Shown here in pieces: positions 55,337 through 61,340 of a DNA stretch of 64,000 nucleotides (position 1 is its first letter; each line of letters opens with the position of its first letter). This DNA is from Ignavibacteriota bacterium. GTDB taxonomy: Bacteria > Bacteroidota > Ignavibacteria > SZUA-365. The position numbers were made by a program, and so were the translations under genes. Location of the stretch: the NCBI GenBank assembly GCA_016218045.1, contig JACRFB010000010.1, positions 134,101-198,100 of the forward strand. The letters run 5' to 3'. The notes beneath the pieces were generated by a model. It was not told the origin of the DNA. It saw nothing but the letters and a program-made list of their open reading frames with translations, and made no database searches.

Positions 55337-55367
55337 TTGAGATGCAAGGATTTCCGGTGTAACTTTC
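55337..55367 (+). promoter_or_regulatory. Promoter of the sigma-factor operon (two readings)
   Basis: TTG (55337-55339), then exactly 20 bases, then TAACTTTC (55360-55367) fits the housekeeping pattern. The same bases also read as an ECF-type promoter, TGTAAC with TGTC 20 bases downstream, which would mean autoregulation. The rest of the gap (55182-55336) shows nothing clear. Confidence 0.4.
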
Positions 55368-55467
55368 GACTTCAGGACTTTGTCTTTTTACCGTTGTCCC
55401 AGATTGTCGAGGGCAACGGAGAGAACAGTGTTCACCCGCGAAGAACAGGATCTCAATACCAGACCGC

Positions 55468-55992
55468 ATGACGGAAGCCGACCGCAGGAGGGTCTTCAAC
55501 CAGCTCTACGCCGACCATGATCGGCGTGTATTCGCGTATTGCCTCTACGTGATCGGCGATCGTGACAAGGCAAACGACGTATTTCAGGAGGTTTTTGTCA
55601 AGGCATTCAAATCGCTACACACCGTACGTGACACCGACAAACTCACGAACTGGCTATTCCGGATCGCGAGAAACGAGTGTCTGAACGCGATGAAGGCGAC
55701 ACAAAGAGTAGACAACCGCTCGGTGCGTATAGACGAAAACGAACATCCGTCATTGGAACTTGCAGCCGAGTCATCACAGTACAGCGACGAAATCGAACAT
55801 CTCCACTGGGGGATCAGCCAACTGTCTCCCGAACATCGCGAAGCACTCATCCTGGCCGAATTCGAAGGATACTCCCTGAAAGAAATCGCCGAATTGACCG
55901 GTACCAGCCTCTCGAACGTCAAGGTCCGGATCTTCCGCGCAAAACAGAAATTACATCATCTCCTTCAGCCCATATTGAACGACTATGAATGA
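55468..55992 (+). CDS. ECF RNA polymerase sigma factor
   Basis: This 174-residue sigma factor has region 2 (about residues 12-85: AYCLYVIGDRDKANDVFQEVFVKAF, then LTNWLFRIARNECL) and region 4 (about 115-170: LSPEHREALILAEFEGYSLKEIAE, then SLSNVKVRIFRAKQKL), with no region 3. This is the ECF (group 4) layout. It directs transcription of a small regulon, normally in response to an envelope signal relayed by an anti-sigma factor. The next gene overlaps its end by 8 bases and encodes a membrane protein with the expected anti-sigma topology. Confidence 0.95.
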   Translation: MTEADRRRVFNQLYADHDRRVFAYCLYVIGDRDKANDVFQEVFVKAFKSLHTVRDTDKLTNWLFRIARNECLNAMKATQRVDNRSVRIDENEHPSLELAAESSQYSDEIEHLHWGISQLSPEHREALILAEFEGYSLKEIAELTGTSLSNVKVRIFRAKQKLHHLLQPILNDYE

Positions 55993-56734
55993 TCGCATCG
56001 AAGAACTGATCGTCTCGTACCTGCACCGCGGAAGCACTCCGGAGCAGGAACGCGAACTGTTCGAGGCGTGCAAGAACAACAGTGACGTCGCCGCGTTGCT
56101 GCGCCGACATGTGACGATGTCCCTCAAACTGCGCGGTCTGCGCGATGCGACGGCCGTGCCGCTCGAGACGCGCAACGCCCTGCTGGAGCGCATAAACAGC
56201 ATTCCCGTCGCGCAGCTACCCGGACATTCCGCTCCGGTCCTGCCTGCGCGTCCGCGTGGTTTCGGATGGGCGCATCTCTTCGGCACCGCGCTCGCGGGCG
56301 TGGCGGCCACAGTTATCCTTTTCCTGCTCTTCCGGCCCGCCGGTTCCGGCAACCAGGGCTCCGAGACATTTTCGGCCGCGCGGATCGACACTGTTGTTGT
56401 CACTCGCACGGAGACCATCACCGAGTACCGCGATGTCATCAAGCCGGTGTACATAACCAAACGCGAGGCCACCCCGGTTGTTTCGGAACCGACACCCGAT
56501 CCCGCCGCGAACCACGCCCCGGCCGTGGATGTTGCCGAGACCATCGTGGTCCCTCCCACGCATAACGACGAGACTGTGCCGACAGTCAGCGAAGGTGTGG
56601 CGCAGGACGAGACTCCCGCCGCCCCGATCGAAACACGTATTGCCGACGCGCACCCGTACCTCCAGCAATACAACGTCATGCTGGCCTCGCTTGAAAAAGT
56701 GCGCCTGACACCGAGCGACCGCATCAGGAACTGA
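55985..56734 (+). CDS. Probable membrane anti-sigma factor
   Basis: This 249-residue protein has a cytoplasmic domain of about 90 residues (IEELIVSYLHRGSTPEQERE), one membrane helix (about residues 95-117) and an extracytoplasmic Pro/Glu/Thr-rich part of 130 residues. Overlap with the sigma gene and the topology make it the likely anti-sigma factor. The zinc motif HxxxCxxC of the ZAS family is absent; only one Cys (in FEACKNN) lies in the cytoplasmic part. Its sensor domain is low-complexity, so the signal might come from the envelope proteins encoded next. It ends 3 bases before the following gene. Confidence 0.7.
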   Translation: MNDRIEELIVSYLHRGSTPEQERELFEACKNNSDVAALLRRHVTMSLKLRGLRDATAVPLETRNALLERINSIPVAQLPGHSAPVLPARPRGFGWAHLFGTALAGVAATVILFLLFRPAGSGNQGSETFSAARIDTVVVTRTETITEYRDVIKPVYITKREATPVVSEPTPDPAANHAPAVDVAETIVVPPTHNDETVPTVSEGVAQDETPAAPIETRIADAHPYLQQYNVMLASLEKVRLTPSDRIRN

Positions 56735-56737
56735 CAC

Positions 56738-58225
56738 ATGAACCGACCCGGCATCCTTCCCGTCGCGCTCGTTCTCGCAACGCTCGCGTTTGCCGTTCCC
56801 ATTTTCATGGGGGGAGTTGCGCGCGGACAGGACGTCAACGGGTACGACATCATTGCCCCGAACGATATTTTCATGCGCGAGACCGTGCAGGCATTGGGCA
56901 GCACATCCACTGAAGTCCTTCCCCTGCTCGATTGCGCGGTAGAATACATTCGGCGATTCGAGGGCCGTGACATCACGTACCGCCGTGGCCCCATCCCGCT
57001 GCATCAGGCGAATCCGCTCGCCTTCGCGAAGGAAATACCGGTGGAAGGCACACAGCCCGTCTCCGAGGCCGATCTTCAGAAGAAGTTTTTCATCGGCGGG
57101 CTCGTGGTGGACGTGCCGCGCGCCGGCGAGGCAGCAGGTCACGTGTCGTCGAGCGACGATCGCACCAAATACATGATCCGCGCCTCCATCGCACCGCTCG
57201 CATATGCGGGCCGCTCCCTCCGCGCGCGCATACTCCTGGAGCGCGCGGTGGTGACCCTCGACGGTACCATTCTGACAGTGCAGCAGAGCGAAGTCTTTTC
57301 ACGGATCGTGGACATCGTCGGGAACGAACCGTTGCATTTCGCACTCCCCACCTGGGAACCGCTCAAGAACTCAACTGATGAGGTCGTCCCTTCCTCACTC
57401 GATGAAGCGTTGATCATCACGCTCGAAACGCCGCGTCACTTTGGTTTCTCGCGGAATTCACCTGAGCCCTTTTCCGCCAGCACACGGCTTTCGTACGCCG
57501 TTCCCGCAACATCCGTCGTCACCCTCTCGGTGGTAGTGAACGGCAGCACGCGTGTGCTGGATCAGGGGCGACGTGAGGCCGGTGTATACCAAATTCCGTG
57601 GGACGCGGCCAGCGTCCCCGACGGCAAGTACACGGCCACGCTTCACGCCATCGACTCCGCCGGCGGGCCGCTGTTCACAGGCACGCTCGACGTCACGAAG
57701 GATAAATCCGCGGGATCCTATACGCCGACACGGCCTCCCGCGATAACCGTCAGCTCAACCGGCCGCATCACCATTTCCACCGAGAGCGGTTTTGCGTATC
57801 AATTCCCCGTGGATCAGAAAAAATCCCTGCGGCACATGTTCACACATATCGGCATACGTGTGGGGTACCGTATTTCTCACGCCCTCGAACTCGGAATCAT
57901 GGGGGGGCAGGACTCGTTCCACGAGACGCCCGGGCCGCAGGTGGACGTCGACCGTATCAACGAATACGGCGGGGTCGTGGCTTATACCTACGGATATGTG
58001 GGTCCATACGCCCGGCTCACATTGGGCGGCAGCACCGTGCAACCGATCATTCATGCCTCCGCGGCCTTTTCGAATGTTTCGACGATCACGGAAATCGGCA
58101 TCGGTGTGCGCGTGATGCTCTTCCATAACATCGGCGTCTTCGCTGTCCCATCGGCTGTGTCGCATCTCAAGTCCGAGGTCAGCACCAAGATCGGCGTTCA
58201 TTACGGAATCGGAGTAGTTTTTTGA
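56738..58225 (+). CDS. Exported protein with FlgD-like Ig segment and barrel-like C-terminus
   Basis: This 495-residue protein has a signal peptide (about residues 1-31, ending VARGQ). A unique N-terminal part follows, then a FlgD-like Ig segment (about residues 250-325: VVTLSVVVNGSTRVLDQGRRE, then YQIPWDAASVPDGKYTATLHA) and a C-terminal 140 residues of alternating hydrophobic strands (for example VGYRISHALELGIMGG) ending in GIGVVF, which suggests a small outer-membrane barrel. I do not recognise the family as a whole. It is the third gene of the sigma operon and a candidate regulon member or sensor. Confidence 0.65.
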   Translation: MNRPGILPVALVLATLAFAVPIFMGGVARGQDVNGYDIIAPNDIFMRETVQALGSTSTEVLPLLDCAVEYIRRFEGRDITYRRGPIPLHQANPLAFAKEIPVEGTQPVSEADLQKKFFIGGLVVDVPRAGEAAGHVSSSDDRTKYMIRASIAPLAYAGRSLRARILLERAVVTLDGTILTVQQSEVFSRIVDIVGNEPLHFALPTWEPLKNSTDEVVPSSLDEALIITLETPRHFGFSRNSPEPFSASTRLSYAVPATSVVTLSVVVNGSTRVLDQGRREAGVYQIPWDAASVPDGKYTATLHAIDSAGGPLFTGTLDVTKDKSAGSYTPTRPPAITVSSTGRITISTESGFAYQFPVDQKKSLRHMFTHIGIRVGYRISHALELGIMGGQDSFHETPGPQVDVDRINEYGGVVAYTYGYVGPYARLTLGGSTVQPIIHASAAFSNVSTITEIGIGVRVMLFHNIGVFAVPSAVSHLKSEVSTKIGVHYGIGVVF

Positions 58226-58893
58226 ACAGGCGCCTCGCGACAGTTTCAGTGATTCTGGCACTCGCAGGGCTGCTCTGCGTGCAGGGATGTGATTTTCCTG
58301 ACGATCCGCCGCTGAAGCCGATAGTGCCTCCCGTGGTGACAGAACCGAGCCGCATCGACAGTGCGCAGTCGCTTCTGGAATTGAAACGCGGCATAAGCTG
58401 GGTGTACATGGCTGTGCCGCGCGGCGAACAGCCGCAGACCTATGTGCTGAATCCCTCCGATGTCACCATCGCCGGAACCCGGTACTTCCGTGCTCCTTTC
58501 GGGTACACTCCCGATGCACCCTCACGATTCGGCGTGACCATGCCGTTACTGCTCCGCCAAGTCGACAGAAGCATCGCCTTCTACGAATTTCCTCTCGACA
58601 CCTTGCGTGAGCCCGGACGATCACCGCGATACGCGTTTATTCTTCCGTATCCCGCTCAAGTGGGTTCGCGCACCGCCGAGACAAACGGTCCGACCGGTAA
58701 CGTGTCAGTCCTTGTGGCTGCAAAAGACACGGTGATCGAGGACCATACCGGCGCGATGAGACGCGTGTACCGGTACGACGTCACAGGATACAGGAACGGC
58801 AAGCTGGTTATCTACGCTCTTCCAGGCAAGGCGCTTCTCCGCATCGATCAGGACGATGTCACGTATCACACTCTCACCTGGATCGGACTCTGA
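58222..58893 (+). CDS. Lipoprotein, CDFPDDPPL paralogue 1
   Basis: This 223-residue protein has a lipoprotein signal peptide with lipobox VQGC (Cys23), followed at once by DFPDDPPLKP. The body shows RIDSAQSLLELKRGISWVYMAV and YDVTGYRNGKLVIYALPGKALL, segments shared with the next gene, so the two are paralogues. No known family is recognised. The start is a TTG overlapping the stop of the preceding gene, which indicates coupling. Expressed with an ECF sigma factor, it is an envelope component of unknown role. Confidence 0.75.
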   Translation: MNRRLATVSVILALAGLLCVQGCDFPDDPPLKPIVPPVVTEPSRIDSAQSLLELKRGISWVYMAVPRGEQPQTYVLNPSDVTIAGTRYFRAPFGYTPDAPSRFGVTMPLLLRQVDRSIAFYEFPLDTLREPGRSPRYAFILPYPAQVGSRTAETNGPTGNVSVLVAAKDTVIEDHTGAMRRVYRYDVTGYRNGKLVIYALPGKALLRIDQDDVTYHTLTWIGL

Positions 58894-58967
58894 GTATATT
58901 TGCAGTACCGGCCTCCCCGCACCGGACGTTCGGCAATTGCATCAATCGAAATTTGAAGCTCACCAAC

Positions 58968-59633
58968 ATGAAACGGACCGCGCGCTTTTTCTCGCTGCTC
59001 GCCTTGGCACTGGCGCTGATTTCCGGCTGCGACTTCCCTGACGATCCGCCGCTGCGTCGCGGTGAGCCGAAAGTGGTGGTCGAGATCGACTCCGCGCGTT
59101 CATTGCTGCCCTTGCGAACCGGCAACATATGGCAGTATATCGCCGTCCCTGAATCCGGCAGGCCTCAGTCGCCCTCGGCAGTCACAGCACTGCAGCAGAC
59201 TTTCAGCGGGCTGGTGTACTGGGAACTTCCGTACCTGTATTTCCATCCGAAAGGCACACATCCCGGGAATCCCATCGTGGCGGCTTTCCCGGCATTGATA
59301 CGTCCCGAAGGAAAGGGGCTGACCTTTTACGAGCGCAACCTGATCCTCGATTCGAACGGGACGAGATATCCGAAAATGATGTTCACACTGCCATACCCGG
59401 CGCGTGTCGATTCGGTGTGCACCTTTCCGCGCAGCGAATACACCGTGCGTGTCGTGAGCAAGAGCTGTGTCGTACAGCACTACGATTCCACCAGCGCGTA
59501 CACGTGTTATCAGTACGAGGTCGAGTACGAGGGCAAGGAACGTACGCAGATTTACGTGATTCCCGGCACGGCGATCTTCAAGGTGTCCATGCGCGACCTG
59601 ACCTTCTACACGGTGGAATGGAAGGTGGAGTAG
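58968..59633 (+). CDS. Lipoprotein, CDFPDDPPL paralogue 2
   Basis: This 221-residue protein has lipobox ISGC (Cys21) and the same DFPDDPPL stretch after the lipidated Cys as its neighbour. The shared framework IDSARSLLPLRTGNIWQYIAV and KERTQIYVIPGTAIFKV confirms a tandem duplication. It differs by several extra cysteines in the middle (VCTFPRSEY, SCVVQHY, YTCYQYE). A TATATTTG box at 58895-58902 could drive it separately, but lacks a TTG at the usual spacing. The ATG at 58968 is preferred over a TTG at 58953. No function is known. Confidence 0.75.
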   Translation: MKRTARFFSLLALALALISGCDFPDDPPLRRGEPKVVVEIDSARSLLPLRTGNIWQYIAVPESGRPQSPSAVTALQQTFSGLVYWELPYLYFHPKGTHPGNPIVAAFPALIRPEGKGLTFYERNLILDSNGTRYPKMMFTLPYPARVDSVCTFPRSEYTVRVVSKSCVVQHYDSTSAYTCYQYEVEYEGKERTQIYVIPGTAIFKVSMRDLTFYTVEWKVE

Positions 59634-59676: not shown

Positions 59677-60786
59677 ATGATCGGCGATCGGCCGCGCATC
59701 GGGTTTTTGACATCGTCGAACGCTGCCGGAGGCGCAGAACTCATGGCGCACCGGCTCGCACAGTGGATGGCCGAGCGCGGCTGGCCGGTGTACCTGTTTG
59801 CCGGTAGCACTCATCCGCTCTGGGAAGCAACGAGCGGGGATCGCCTCACAGTCATCGACGCGGCATCCGTGCGCAACTATGCGCGGAGAATAGAGGACGA
59901 ACACATCCGATGTATGTTCGTGAATTCCTCGCGCGACCTGCGACTTGCCGTGCGAGGAGCATGGCTGTGCAGACCCGCATGCCCGCTGGTGATGTTGCAG
60001 CACATGCAGCCCGGACGACGCAAGCGGGATCCGCTGCACGTATGGATGTTTTCGAAGCTGAGCTATTGGGTATCACCTCTGCAGGGTCTTGCCGACCTGA
60101 CACATCAGGCCACAGGCATCCCACGCGAGAAGATCCGCGTCATTCCTCACGGGATCGAGCTGCGGAGATTCATCCAACCTGCCATCGACCGCGTGACTGC
60201 GCGGACGGTGTTCGGACTGCCCTCCGATGTCGTCGTCATTGGCAACGTCGGGCGGCTCGACTACGGGAAGGGCCAGGTGCACCTCCTCGAAGCACTCGCC
60301 ATCCTGCGCCGCCGCGGCAGGAACGTCGTAGCACTGATCGTGGGCGACGAAACTGCCGGCGAATCACAAAACACGGCCGCACACCTGCGAGCGCGTGCGA
60401 AGGCGCTCGGCATATCGGACGCCACATTCTTTCACGCAGCACGGCCTGATGTTGAAACAGCGTTCAGGGCGATGGACATCTTCGCGTTGACGAGTCTCTC
60501 CGAAACCTATGGGCTTGTGACGATCGAGGCGATGGCATCGGGGCTACCGGTCATCGGCACACGCAGCGCCGGCACGCCGGAGCTGCTTGATGACGGACGG
60601 ACTGGTTTGCTCGTCCCGCCCGCGGACAGTGCAGCGCTCGCATCGGCAATCGAAGAACTGCTCGAAAATTCCGTCCTCGCCCGCACCCTGTCCGACGCGG
60701 CGCGGCACGAGGCCATGCTGCGCTTTTCACACTCGGCGCAATGCGAGGCGCTTGAAGTGCTGATCTCTGATGCGCTGAAGTCGTAA
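59677..60786 (+). CDS. GT4-family glycosyltransferase
   Basis: This 369-residue GT-B enzyme has the N-terminal acceptor domain start IGFLTSSNAAGGAELMAHRLA and the C-terminal donor domain (VIGNVGRLDYGKGQ, then SETYGLVTIEAMASGLPVIGT). The EX7E motif (Glu in SETYG and the second Glu in TIEAM) is intact. It should transfer a nucleotide-activated sugar to an acceptor in a surface polysaccharide or glycolipid. Donor and acceptor are unknown. It lies 43 bases after the lipoprotein gene on the same strand, so transcription may continue from the sigma operon. No clear Shine-Dalgarno site is seen. Confidence 0.88.
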   Translation: MIGDRPRIGFLTSSNAAGGAELMAHRLAQWMAERGWPVYLFAGSTHPLWEATSGDRLTVIDAASVRNYARRIEDEHIRCMFVNSSRDLRLAVRGAWLCRPACPLVMLQHMQPGRRKRDPLHVWMFSKLSYWVSPLQGLADLTHQATGIPREKIRVIPHGIELRRFIQPAIDRVTARTVFGLPSDVVVIGNVGRLDYGKGQVHLLEALAILRRRGRNVVALIVGDETAGESQNTAAHLRARAKALGISDATFFHAARPDVETAFRAMDIFALTSLSETYGLVTIEAMASGLPVIGTRSAGTPELLDDGRTGLLVPPADSAALASAIEELLENSVLARTLSDAARHEAMLRFSHSAQCEALEVLISDALKS

Positions 60787-60884: not shown

Positions 60885-61340
60885 ATGACCAAGTTCATCA
60901 CCGCCGCCATCGTTGTACTTCTGCTCGCATCCTGCGGCAAGGAACCCGCAGCTAAGACCGACACGCCCGCGGGCGGCACAAAGCCATCGTCGGCCACCCC
61001 GCCTCCCGCCGCACAGGACATCTCGAACGAGGCCCTTGTAAAGATCGATCCGGAGATACAGAAATACCAGGATGCCGTCGACAAAGCGAAGTCGGTGTAC
61101 GACGCGAAGAACAACGAGAAAACGCGCGACGCGCTCGTTGAGGCATATACGGCATTCGGCAATTACATGGTGTACGACAGCCCCGTCACACCGCGCAAGG
61201 GCAAATACCGCCGCGCTCTGGTGGAATACCGCCGCGCACTTGCCTTGCAACCAAACAACGAAAAGGTCAAGGCCGAAGTGAATCAGATCGAGATGATTTA
61301 TCGCGACATGGGAAGGCCCGTACCGCAGGACGCGCTGTAG
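60885..61340 (+). CDS. Small lipoprotein with TPR-like helices
   Basis: This 151-residue protein has a lipoprotein signal peptide with lipobox LASC (Cys17), an Ala/Pro/Thr-rich linker, and a helical C-terminal part resembling a TPR pair (DALVEAYTAFGNYMVY, then YRRALVEYRRALALQPNNEKVKAEV). The function is unknown; envelope TPR lipoproteins often serve as scaffolds. The start follows AAAGGAAA. Its 3' end overlaps the convergent glycosyltransferase gene by 43 bases. Confidence 0.8.
   Translation: MTKFITAAIVVLLLASCGKEPAAKTDTPAGGTKPSSATPPPAAQDISNEALVKIDPEIQKYQDAVDKAKSVYDAKNNEKTRDALVEAYTAFGNYMVYDSPVTPRKGKYRRALVEYRRALALQPNNEKVKAEVNQIEMIYRDMGRPVPQDAL

Follow-up and report, generated by a model that had tools for sequence, protein, structure and literature searches.

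The 64,000-nucleotide (nt) stretch of DNA analyzed here, called the window, lies on the forward strand of contig JACRFB010000010.1 (assembly GCA_016218045.1, positions 134,101 to 198,100) of an Ignavibacteriota bacterium (SZUA-365). As read from its open reading frames (ORFs), its plus strand carries a closely packed run of genes for an extracytoplasmic function (ECF) sigma factor, SIG; a predicted anti-sigma factor, ANTI; an exported outer-membrane protein, BARREL; and two paralogous lipoproteins, LIP1 and LIP2. We propose that this operon is a split version of the dual membrane-spanning anti-sigma (Dma) system of the Bacteroidota, the nearest known system, in which BARREL and the lipoprotein or lipoproteins form the outer-membrane arm, and we regard this reading, taken as a whole, as likely.

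In the Dma/Das system of Bacteroides thetaiotaomicron (PMC13088901), an ECF sigma factor of the ECF21 group is encoded beside an anti-sigma factor in which a sigma-binding domain and a helix are joined by a long, disordered tether to an outer-membrane barrel, and loss of the anti-sigma factor strongly induces its own operon. The window operon is like Dma in its Bacteroidota host, in its ECF sigma gene adjoining the gene of an anti-sigma factor with a Dma-type domain, and in the single helix of the latter. It is unlike Dma in that the anti-sigma factor and the barrel are the products of two genes and are exported separately. Further, additional domains of about 300 residues precede the barrel here, the anti-sigma factor ends in a conserved tail, and a gene for a predicted half-barrel lipoprotein follows.

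A Conserved Locus

A preliminary description of this DNA had listed the five tightly spaced ORFs, and both the ORFs and the spacing are borne out. The successive junctions measure −8, +3, −4, and +74 nt when ATG 58968 is taken as the start of LIP2; if LIP2 begins at TTG 58953 instead, the last junction becomes +59 nt. TTG is the start codon that LIP1 requires.

Relatives were sought in 149 genomes, the window genome included, and the family comprises 12 of them. Eleven relatives were compared with the window, and in one, G009, the contig begins inside BARREL. The order SIG-ANTI-BARREL-LIP is found in the window and in 10 of the 10 relatives whose contig spans the locus. Of the five-gene order proposed earlier, the first four genes hold their places, whereas a second LIP recurs only in G003. 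The SIG-ANTI overlap is 8 nt in 11/11 loci, and that between BARREL and the following LIP is 1 or 4 nt in 11/11. BARREL is separately encoded, with its own hydrophobic N-terminus, next to ANTI in all 11.

A near full-length BARREL is encoded by the window genome and the 11 others of the family (partial in G009, where the contig is cut). The BARREL matches listed outside the family are partial only and center on the Ig-like region. LIP1 has matches in 12 of the 149 genomes, and these are the same 12. A second LIP gene is present only in the window genome (G000) and in G003, its sister in the sigma tree. LIP1 of the window is nearer to the LIP1 of G003 (47% identity) than to its own LIP2 (37%), so the duplication probably preceded the divergence of these two genomes. 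No Pfam family is found above the cut-off in ANTI, LIP1, or LIP2, and database relatives with names come from metagenome-assembled “Bacteroidota”, “Bacteroidetes”, or “Ignavibacteria” bacteria.

ANTI and BARREL Match the Two Ends of Fused Dma Proteins

The window genome itself has four ECF sigma genes that are each followed by a gene for one long, fused Dma-type protein (L138, L143, L144, and L145). They came to light when the genes that follow each of the 14 other Sigma70_r2 loci in this genome were read. A fused protein has a sigma-binding domain, a helix, a long tether, and a barrel-like C-terminal part, and a profile built from six such proteins has matches in 75 of the 149 class genomes, some of them covering the profile only partly. 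Both products of the split genes align with this chain. The ANTI domain matches the fused sigma-binding domains with an hhalign probability of 94.1% (four proteins) or 97.6% (six), and the barrel of BARREL matches the fused barrels at 94.5% (E 8e-8, 130 columns) and 96.5%. When the hidden Markov model of the barrel was run against 6532 ORFs, that is, against all loci gathered, including 400 kb of arbitrary DNA of the window genome, the matches listed after the orthologues (ranks 24–60, 6e-6 to 0.44) consisted entirely of fused Dma proteins and fragments of such proteins. Since the ORF set is enriched in Dma loci, this result speaks to specificity and not to frequency.

The proposal that the second gene encodes an anti-sigma factor, made earlier from its position, is now supported by homology, and ANTI is predicted to be an anti-sigma factor of the Dma kind. 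Likewise, relatives have this same barrel covalently joined to an anti-sigma domain, which supports the suggestion that the barrel of BARREL belongs to the sensor. The sigma tree points the same way. SIG sequences form one clade (100/99), which groups with sigma factors from fused Dma operons (92/65), apart from eight of the nine other sigmas of the window genome; the ninth, L142, has a long branch and falls within the fused-Dma sigma group. Five rows were left out of the tree: the duplicates L010 and L005, and three partial frames.

ANTI is laid out as a sigma-binding domain (residues 1–75), a membrane helix (98–116), a juxtamembrane stretch, a variable tether, and a conserved periplasmic C-terminal tail. 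In the alignment, the first ~53 and the last ~25 residues are conserved, and the stretch from helix to tail is variable, gap-rich, and of low complexity. Each of the 11 orthologues has one hydrophobic segment, which is the helix just given in the window protein, and in none of the 11 is the zinc motif HxxxCxxC present; a single-helix protein free of the zinc anti-sigma (ZAS) motif is what had been described. The word “atypical”, also used of it, is apt in comparison with zinc anti-sigmas. It is not apt in comparison with Dma, since the sigma-binding domains of the fused Dma proteins that were read also lack HxxxCxxC. In the zinc-free domain of ANTI, a lone His and a lone Cys, H14 and C29, are invariant across the 11 sequences, and a redox or metal role for them is conceivable.

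Among the 6532 ORFs, three regions occur in the split form alone and are conserved within it: the ANTI tail, the ANTI juxtamembrane segment, and the N domain of BARREL. The juxtamembrane segment and the N domain have no relatives there outside the split system, and the tail, apart from ANTI sequences, has no match better than E 3.8. We infer that a dock, which would join the ANTI tail to BARREL or to LIP, has taken the place of the covalent connection in Dma. An ANTI profile run on 245 class genomes retrieves 11 family members and six others, and the six non-family matches, each with a sigma gene directly ahead, start in the sigma-binding domain and end short of the conserved tail. In two of these loci, L126 and L128, the ANTI-like chain reads on into an apparent C-terminal barrel.

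In seven family genomes, a fused Dma gene and a second ECF sigma gene lie a few kb upstream on the opposite strand (L045, L046, L048, L049, L050, L054, and L055). The promoter of this neighboring fused paralogue, where it was read, is TGTAACC...GTGTC, 26 bp long.

The Predicted SIG Promoter and Regulon

A scan for a promoter motif had been called for, and it was productive. Ahead of SIG, TGTAAC and a GTC 17–18 nt farther on are invariant in 11/11 upstream regions. In the 12 family genomes, the pattern TGTAACYWTN{13,14}TGTC has 52 sites, compared with five for the reversed control. Ten of these are the SIG promoter, 12 precede members of one lipoprotein family, nine precede an 81-aa protein, and 21 are elsewhere. 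The conservation of the motif suggests that the SIG circuit is autoregulated. The operon had further been called a self-contained circuit, and this does not stand: the same promoter motif is found before a distant gene for a Spy/LTXXQ-like lipoprotein in 11 of the 12 genomes, so the circuit would be autoregulated yet not self-contained.

The 12 lipoproteins with a promoter site are mutually homologous (E below 1e-22), and their matches are to LTXXQ and Metal_resist, which we take to be the Spy/CpxP/CnrX-type group. A profile search combined with a promoter check, with repeats of one gene counted once, gave 20 long homologues spread over 11 family genomes. The TGTAAC/TGTC site upstream is perfect in 14 of the 20 and has one mismatch in three, and a perfect site occurs at least once in every one of these 11 genomes. 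No homologue was found in the twelfth genome, G009, which is 88% complete.

The 81-aa conserved protein (MQNEL...NPL.D.IDD) has a TGTAACYTT...GTGTC site upstream in nine of the 12 family genomes (L065, L068, L078, L083, L087, L090, L099, L107, and L109); the one that was scanned has no Pfam match. It was dropped as a member of the SIG regulon because its sites have 26-bp spacing and GTGTC, and it probably belongs to the regulon of the fused paralogue’s sigma factor. In two related genomes (L105 and L111), similar proteins of ~400 aa with the sequence LFY.GQ.WGSE.QY.PWTLLLNGGFD have a 27-bp site upstream and are possible further targets of SIG.

Genes downstream in autoregulated ECF operons are often mere targets of the sigma factor. 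It might therefore be argued that SIG and ANTI form a conventional ECF pair whose sensing takes place at the inner membrane, with BARREL and the LIPs serving as a repair regulon and not as sensors; the distant Spy/LTXXQ-like lipoprotein does resemble a pure target. We think this improbable, because the barrel is covalently fused to an anti-sigma domain both in relatives and in four proteins of the window genome, and because ANTI retains a conserved periplasmic tail beyond its variable tether.

Lipoproteins and their N-Terminal Motif

The preliminary description had drawn attention to twin lipoproteins sharing DFPDDPPL. The motif stands: from the lipidated Cys onward, CDFP[SDA]DPPL is found in 14 of 14 LIPs from the 12 genomes, and so it is not a chance resemblance. 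The twin state, present in 2/12 genomes, is not supported as a defining feature.

Lipoproteins with a comparable start are encoded beside fused Dma genes. After 74 fused anti-sigma genes, 43 lipoproteins were called by a strict predictor, and 26 of the 43 start with C-x-x-P-x-[DE], often as CxSPLDxDTPR. The remaining 31 have no lipoprotein that passes the predictor, though in some of these one was recognized by eye (L138, CTSPIDIDTPR; L143, CVSPLEPDTPR). For background, a predictor of the same kind, with all start codons allowed, gave 26 lipoproteins and one motif match, LIP2 itself, in 400 kb of the window genome together with the window; in another 400 kb from seven other genomes of the class, among them one family member, it gave 21 lipoproteins and no match. 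With LIP2 removed, the background total is 0/46 with a CxxPx[DE] start. Fisher’s test, computed against 27 background proteins, gives p 4e-8, a nominal value, as the 43 lipoproteins on the Dma side include related genes and are not 43 independent events. Within the window genome, three of the four fused loci continue with a lipoprotein gene, with the starts CTSPIDIDTPR, CVSPLEPDTPR, and CKTPTEVDADR.

The proteins behind the CxxPx[DE] start vary, with VWA in L138, DUF5122 in L150, and no Pfam match in L143 and L152. Since they differ, the feature common to Dma partners is suggested to be the N-terminal stretch and not a globular domain.

For the globular domain of LIP, the best structural matches of the model are the YmcC-type Bacteroidota lipoproteins 4fvs (Z 8.9, 160 residues, 4.6 Å) and 3fzx (Z 8.6), followed by YmcC (Z 7.3), VioE, RseB (3m4w, Z 6.2, 114 residues, 4.1 Å), and LolA/LolB. 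Foldseek alone returned nothing for the model at E ≤ 0.001. LIP is likely, though not certain, to be a half barrel of the LolA/RseB/YmcC type, a fold that says nothing of function.

In E. coli, the RseA-RseB-sigma E system combines a membrane anti-sigma factor that has a periplasmic tail with a half-barrel regulator. ANTI has the same kind of tail, and the LIP model resembles RseB in fold; RseB, however, is periplasmic and not a lipoprotein, and its system has no outer-membrane barrel subunit. LIP could be a direct negative regulator that binds the ANTI tail and shields it from proteolysis, with BARREL positioning LIP or carrying a ligand. The match to 3m4w, whose title concerns the basis of negative regulation by RseB, is in keeping with such a role; it stands in a list headed by YmcC-type lipoproteins and LolA/LolB. 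Nevertheless, a Z of about 6 may reflect a common arrangement, and Foldseek does not recover the match at E ≤ 0.001. Moreover, no sequence relation of LIP to RseB was seen. That fused Dma lipoproteins of other kinds (VWA, DUF5122) share the N-terminal motif type directs attention to the N-terminus and away from the half barrel. We consider an RseB-like role for LIP unlikely.

The Outer-Membrane Protein

The third product had been described as a barrel-like exported protein. It does contain an eight-stranded barrel, and the description is corrected by the ~300 residues of domains that precede it. In the AlphaFold2 (AF2) model, a β-rich N domain (about residues 28–232) is followed by an Ig-like domain (233–324) and by the barrel (340–495), which ends in Phe. 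The closest structures to the barrel include OprF (Z 14.8), OmpA (Z 14.3), and NspA, and the Ig region matches 2xwx with Z 9.5. Pfam gives weak matches to Ig-like and outer-membrane-barrel models. Sequence searches with ANTI, LIP, and BARREL against solved structures yielded no convincing match (best E 0.034).

A locus with a sigma factor, a membrane regulator, and an outer-membrane protein also calls to mind FecR/TonB-type cell-surface signaling, in which BARREL would both bind a ligand as its receptor and transport it, but so small a barrel, together with the absence of any TonB-dependent receptor, plug, or FecR domain by Pfam at E up to 10, makes this very improbable.

A Proposed Mechanism for the Split Dma System

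Several points weigh against a split Dma system. The hhalign probabilities come from shallow alignments (template Neff about 3), and the tree support for SIG beside the Dma sigmas, at 92/65, is moderate. Because SIG and the sigma of the nearby fused paralogue are not sisters, the tree lends no support to a simple recent fission; descent from that paralogue was dropped, as its sigmas fall into a separate fused clade and have a promoter of another kind. The globular domain of LIP has no sequence homology to the lipoproteins of fused Dma operons, and the N-terminus alone aligns with them, weakly (E 1.6–8.7). As to the target lipoproteins, at E ≤ 0.1 Pfam reports LTXXQ in four of 12 (best 6.9e-8, over the cut-off) and Metal_resist in six of 12, and three of the 20 Spy/LTXXQ-like homologues have no TGTAAC/TGTC site.

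The split Dma system would operate as follows. The N-terminal domain of ANTI would bind SIG and hold it at the inner membrane. The ANTI tether would span the periplasm, and its conserved C-terminal tail would dock non-covalently on the outer-membrane arm, made up of BARREL (periplasmic N domain, Ig domain, and OmpA-like eight-stranded barrel) and one or two lipoproteins, which would bind BARREL through their CDFPxDPPL N-termini. Outer-membrane damage, or failed assembly of the arm, would release or expose ANTI, which would then be degraded, presumably by proteolysis. Freed SIG would transcribe its own operon, providing more sensor, as well as the gene for the Spy/LTXXQ-like lipoprotein chaperone.

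A split system of this kind bears on how signals in the Bacteroidota travel from the outer membrane through the periplasm to a sigma factor. In the natural split, the halves can be expressed, deleted, and mixed apart, as is not possible with a single chain. The lipoprotein motif in common offers Dma systems a candidate partner that is testable in laboratory Bacteroides, and from the 27-bp promoter motif a regulon can be predicted. The Dma2 report calls for finding the stimulus of Dma2 (PMC13088901).

Comparison with Known Systems

Two regulatory pairs of Phocaeicola vulgatus are relevant. In one, the anti-sigma factor ends in an outer-membrane barrel, NigD lipoprotein genes are induced, and envelope stress is the likely trigger (PMC9308784); the barrel is fused there and separate here. 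In the other, cirYZ is co-transcribed with spy (PMC13114119). There spy is part of the transcript, whereas here the Spy/LTXXQ-like gene is distant and has the same promoter motif. By analogy, these envelope-stress and spy pairs agree with the role proposed for the SIG system.

RcsF of E. coli has a lipidated N-terminal domain on the cell surface and a C-terminal domain in the periplasm, and it is complexed with barrels (PMC4942254). LIP may be compared with RcsF as a lipoprotein with a special lipid-proximal N-terminal stretch that is paired with a barrel and would report envelope damage inward. Unlike LIP, RcsF signals to a phosphorelay, and a threading of LIP through BARREL is hypothetical. 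It is tempting to propose, as a tentative extension, that the stretch after the Cys, which reads CDFPxDPPL in the LIPs and CxSPLDxDTPR beside fused Dma genes, serves the Dma-type barrel as a docking or trans-lumen peptide. Dma systems across the class might then be RcsF-like barrel-lipoprotein sensors, and the window operon would illustrate that the Dma link from inner to outer membrane can also be non-covalent, with a tail-to-domain dock restraining the sigma factor. We found no description of a split Dma system or of the lipoprotein motif in the literature searched (titles and abstract openings, with partial coverage).

Features and Neighboring Loci

Table 1. Positions in the window of the operon, its predicted promoter, and the gene that follows. 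pLDDT, predicted local distance difference test; pTM, predicted template modeling score.
Feature	Position	Strand	Basis
Predicted SIG-dependent promoter, 27 bp, TGTAAC (−35) ... TTGTC (−10)	55358..55384	+	Upstream alignment, genome scan
SIG, ECF sigma factor, 174 aa	55468..55992	+	Pfam Sigma70_r2 8e-15, Sigma70_r4_2 2e-16
ANTI, predicted anti-sigma factor, 249 aa	55985..56734	+	hhalign to fused Dma domains, alignment
ANTI C-terminal tail YLQQYN.ML.S.E.V.L...DRI, candidate docking peptide	56657..56731	+	Conserved 11/11
BARREL, exported outer-membrane protein, 495 aa, last residue F	56738..58225	+	AF2 pLDDT 78, pTM 0.56
BARREL 8-strand barrel domain	57755..58222	+	hhalign to fused Dma C-terminal barrel
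LIP1, lipoprotein, 223 aa, TTG start	58222..58893	+	AF2 pLDDT 80, pTM 0.73
CDFPDDPPL of LIP1, starting at lipidated Cys	58288..58314	+	Motif alignment
LIP2, lipoprotein paralogue, ATG start (TTG 58953 possible)	58968..59633	+	37% identity to LIP1
CDFPDDPPL of LIP2, starting at lipidated Cys	59028..59054	+	Motif alignment
Group 1 glycosyltransferase	59677..60786	+	PF00534 4e-36; starts 43 nt past LIP2

In a sample of 198 genomes of the phylum, the matches listed outside the class cover the sigma-binding and membrane region only. Eight such loci of other classes (L285–L289, L291, L292, and L294) were considered as split Dma systems and rejected, as they resemble other anti-sigma types instead. 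In three of them, from other Bacteroidota classes (L285, L286, and L289), an ECF sigma gene is followed by that of an anti-sigma factor with a carbohydrate-binding-like periplasmic domain (FNNW...). In L286, L289, and L294, an outer-membrane-like protein of roughly 400 aa is next in line; for L294, the frame preceding this protein was taken as the anti-sigma factor.

The glycosyltransferase gene downstream of LIP2 may be on the operon transcript. Such a gene follows the lipoprotein gene or genes in 10 of 11 relatives, and in the remaining one the contig ends right past LIP. Beyond it, a small TPR lipoprotein is encoded at 60885–61340, and this order is kept in most relatives.

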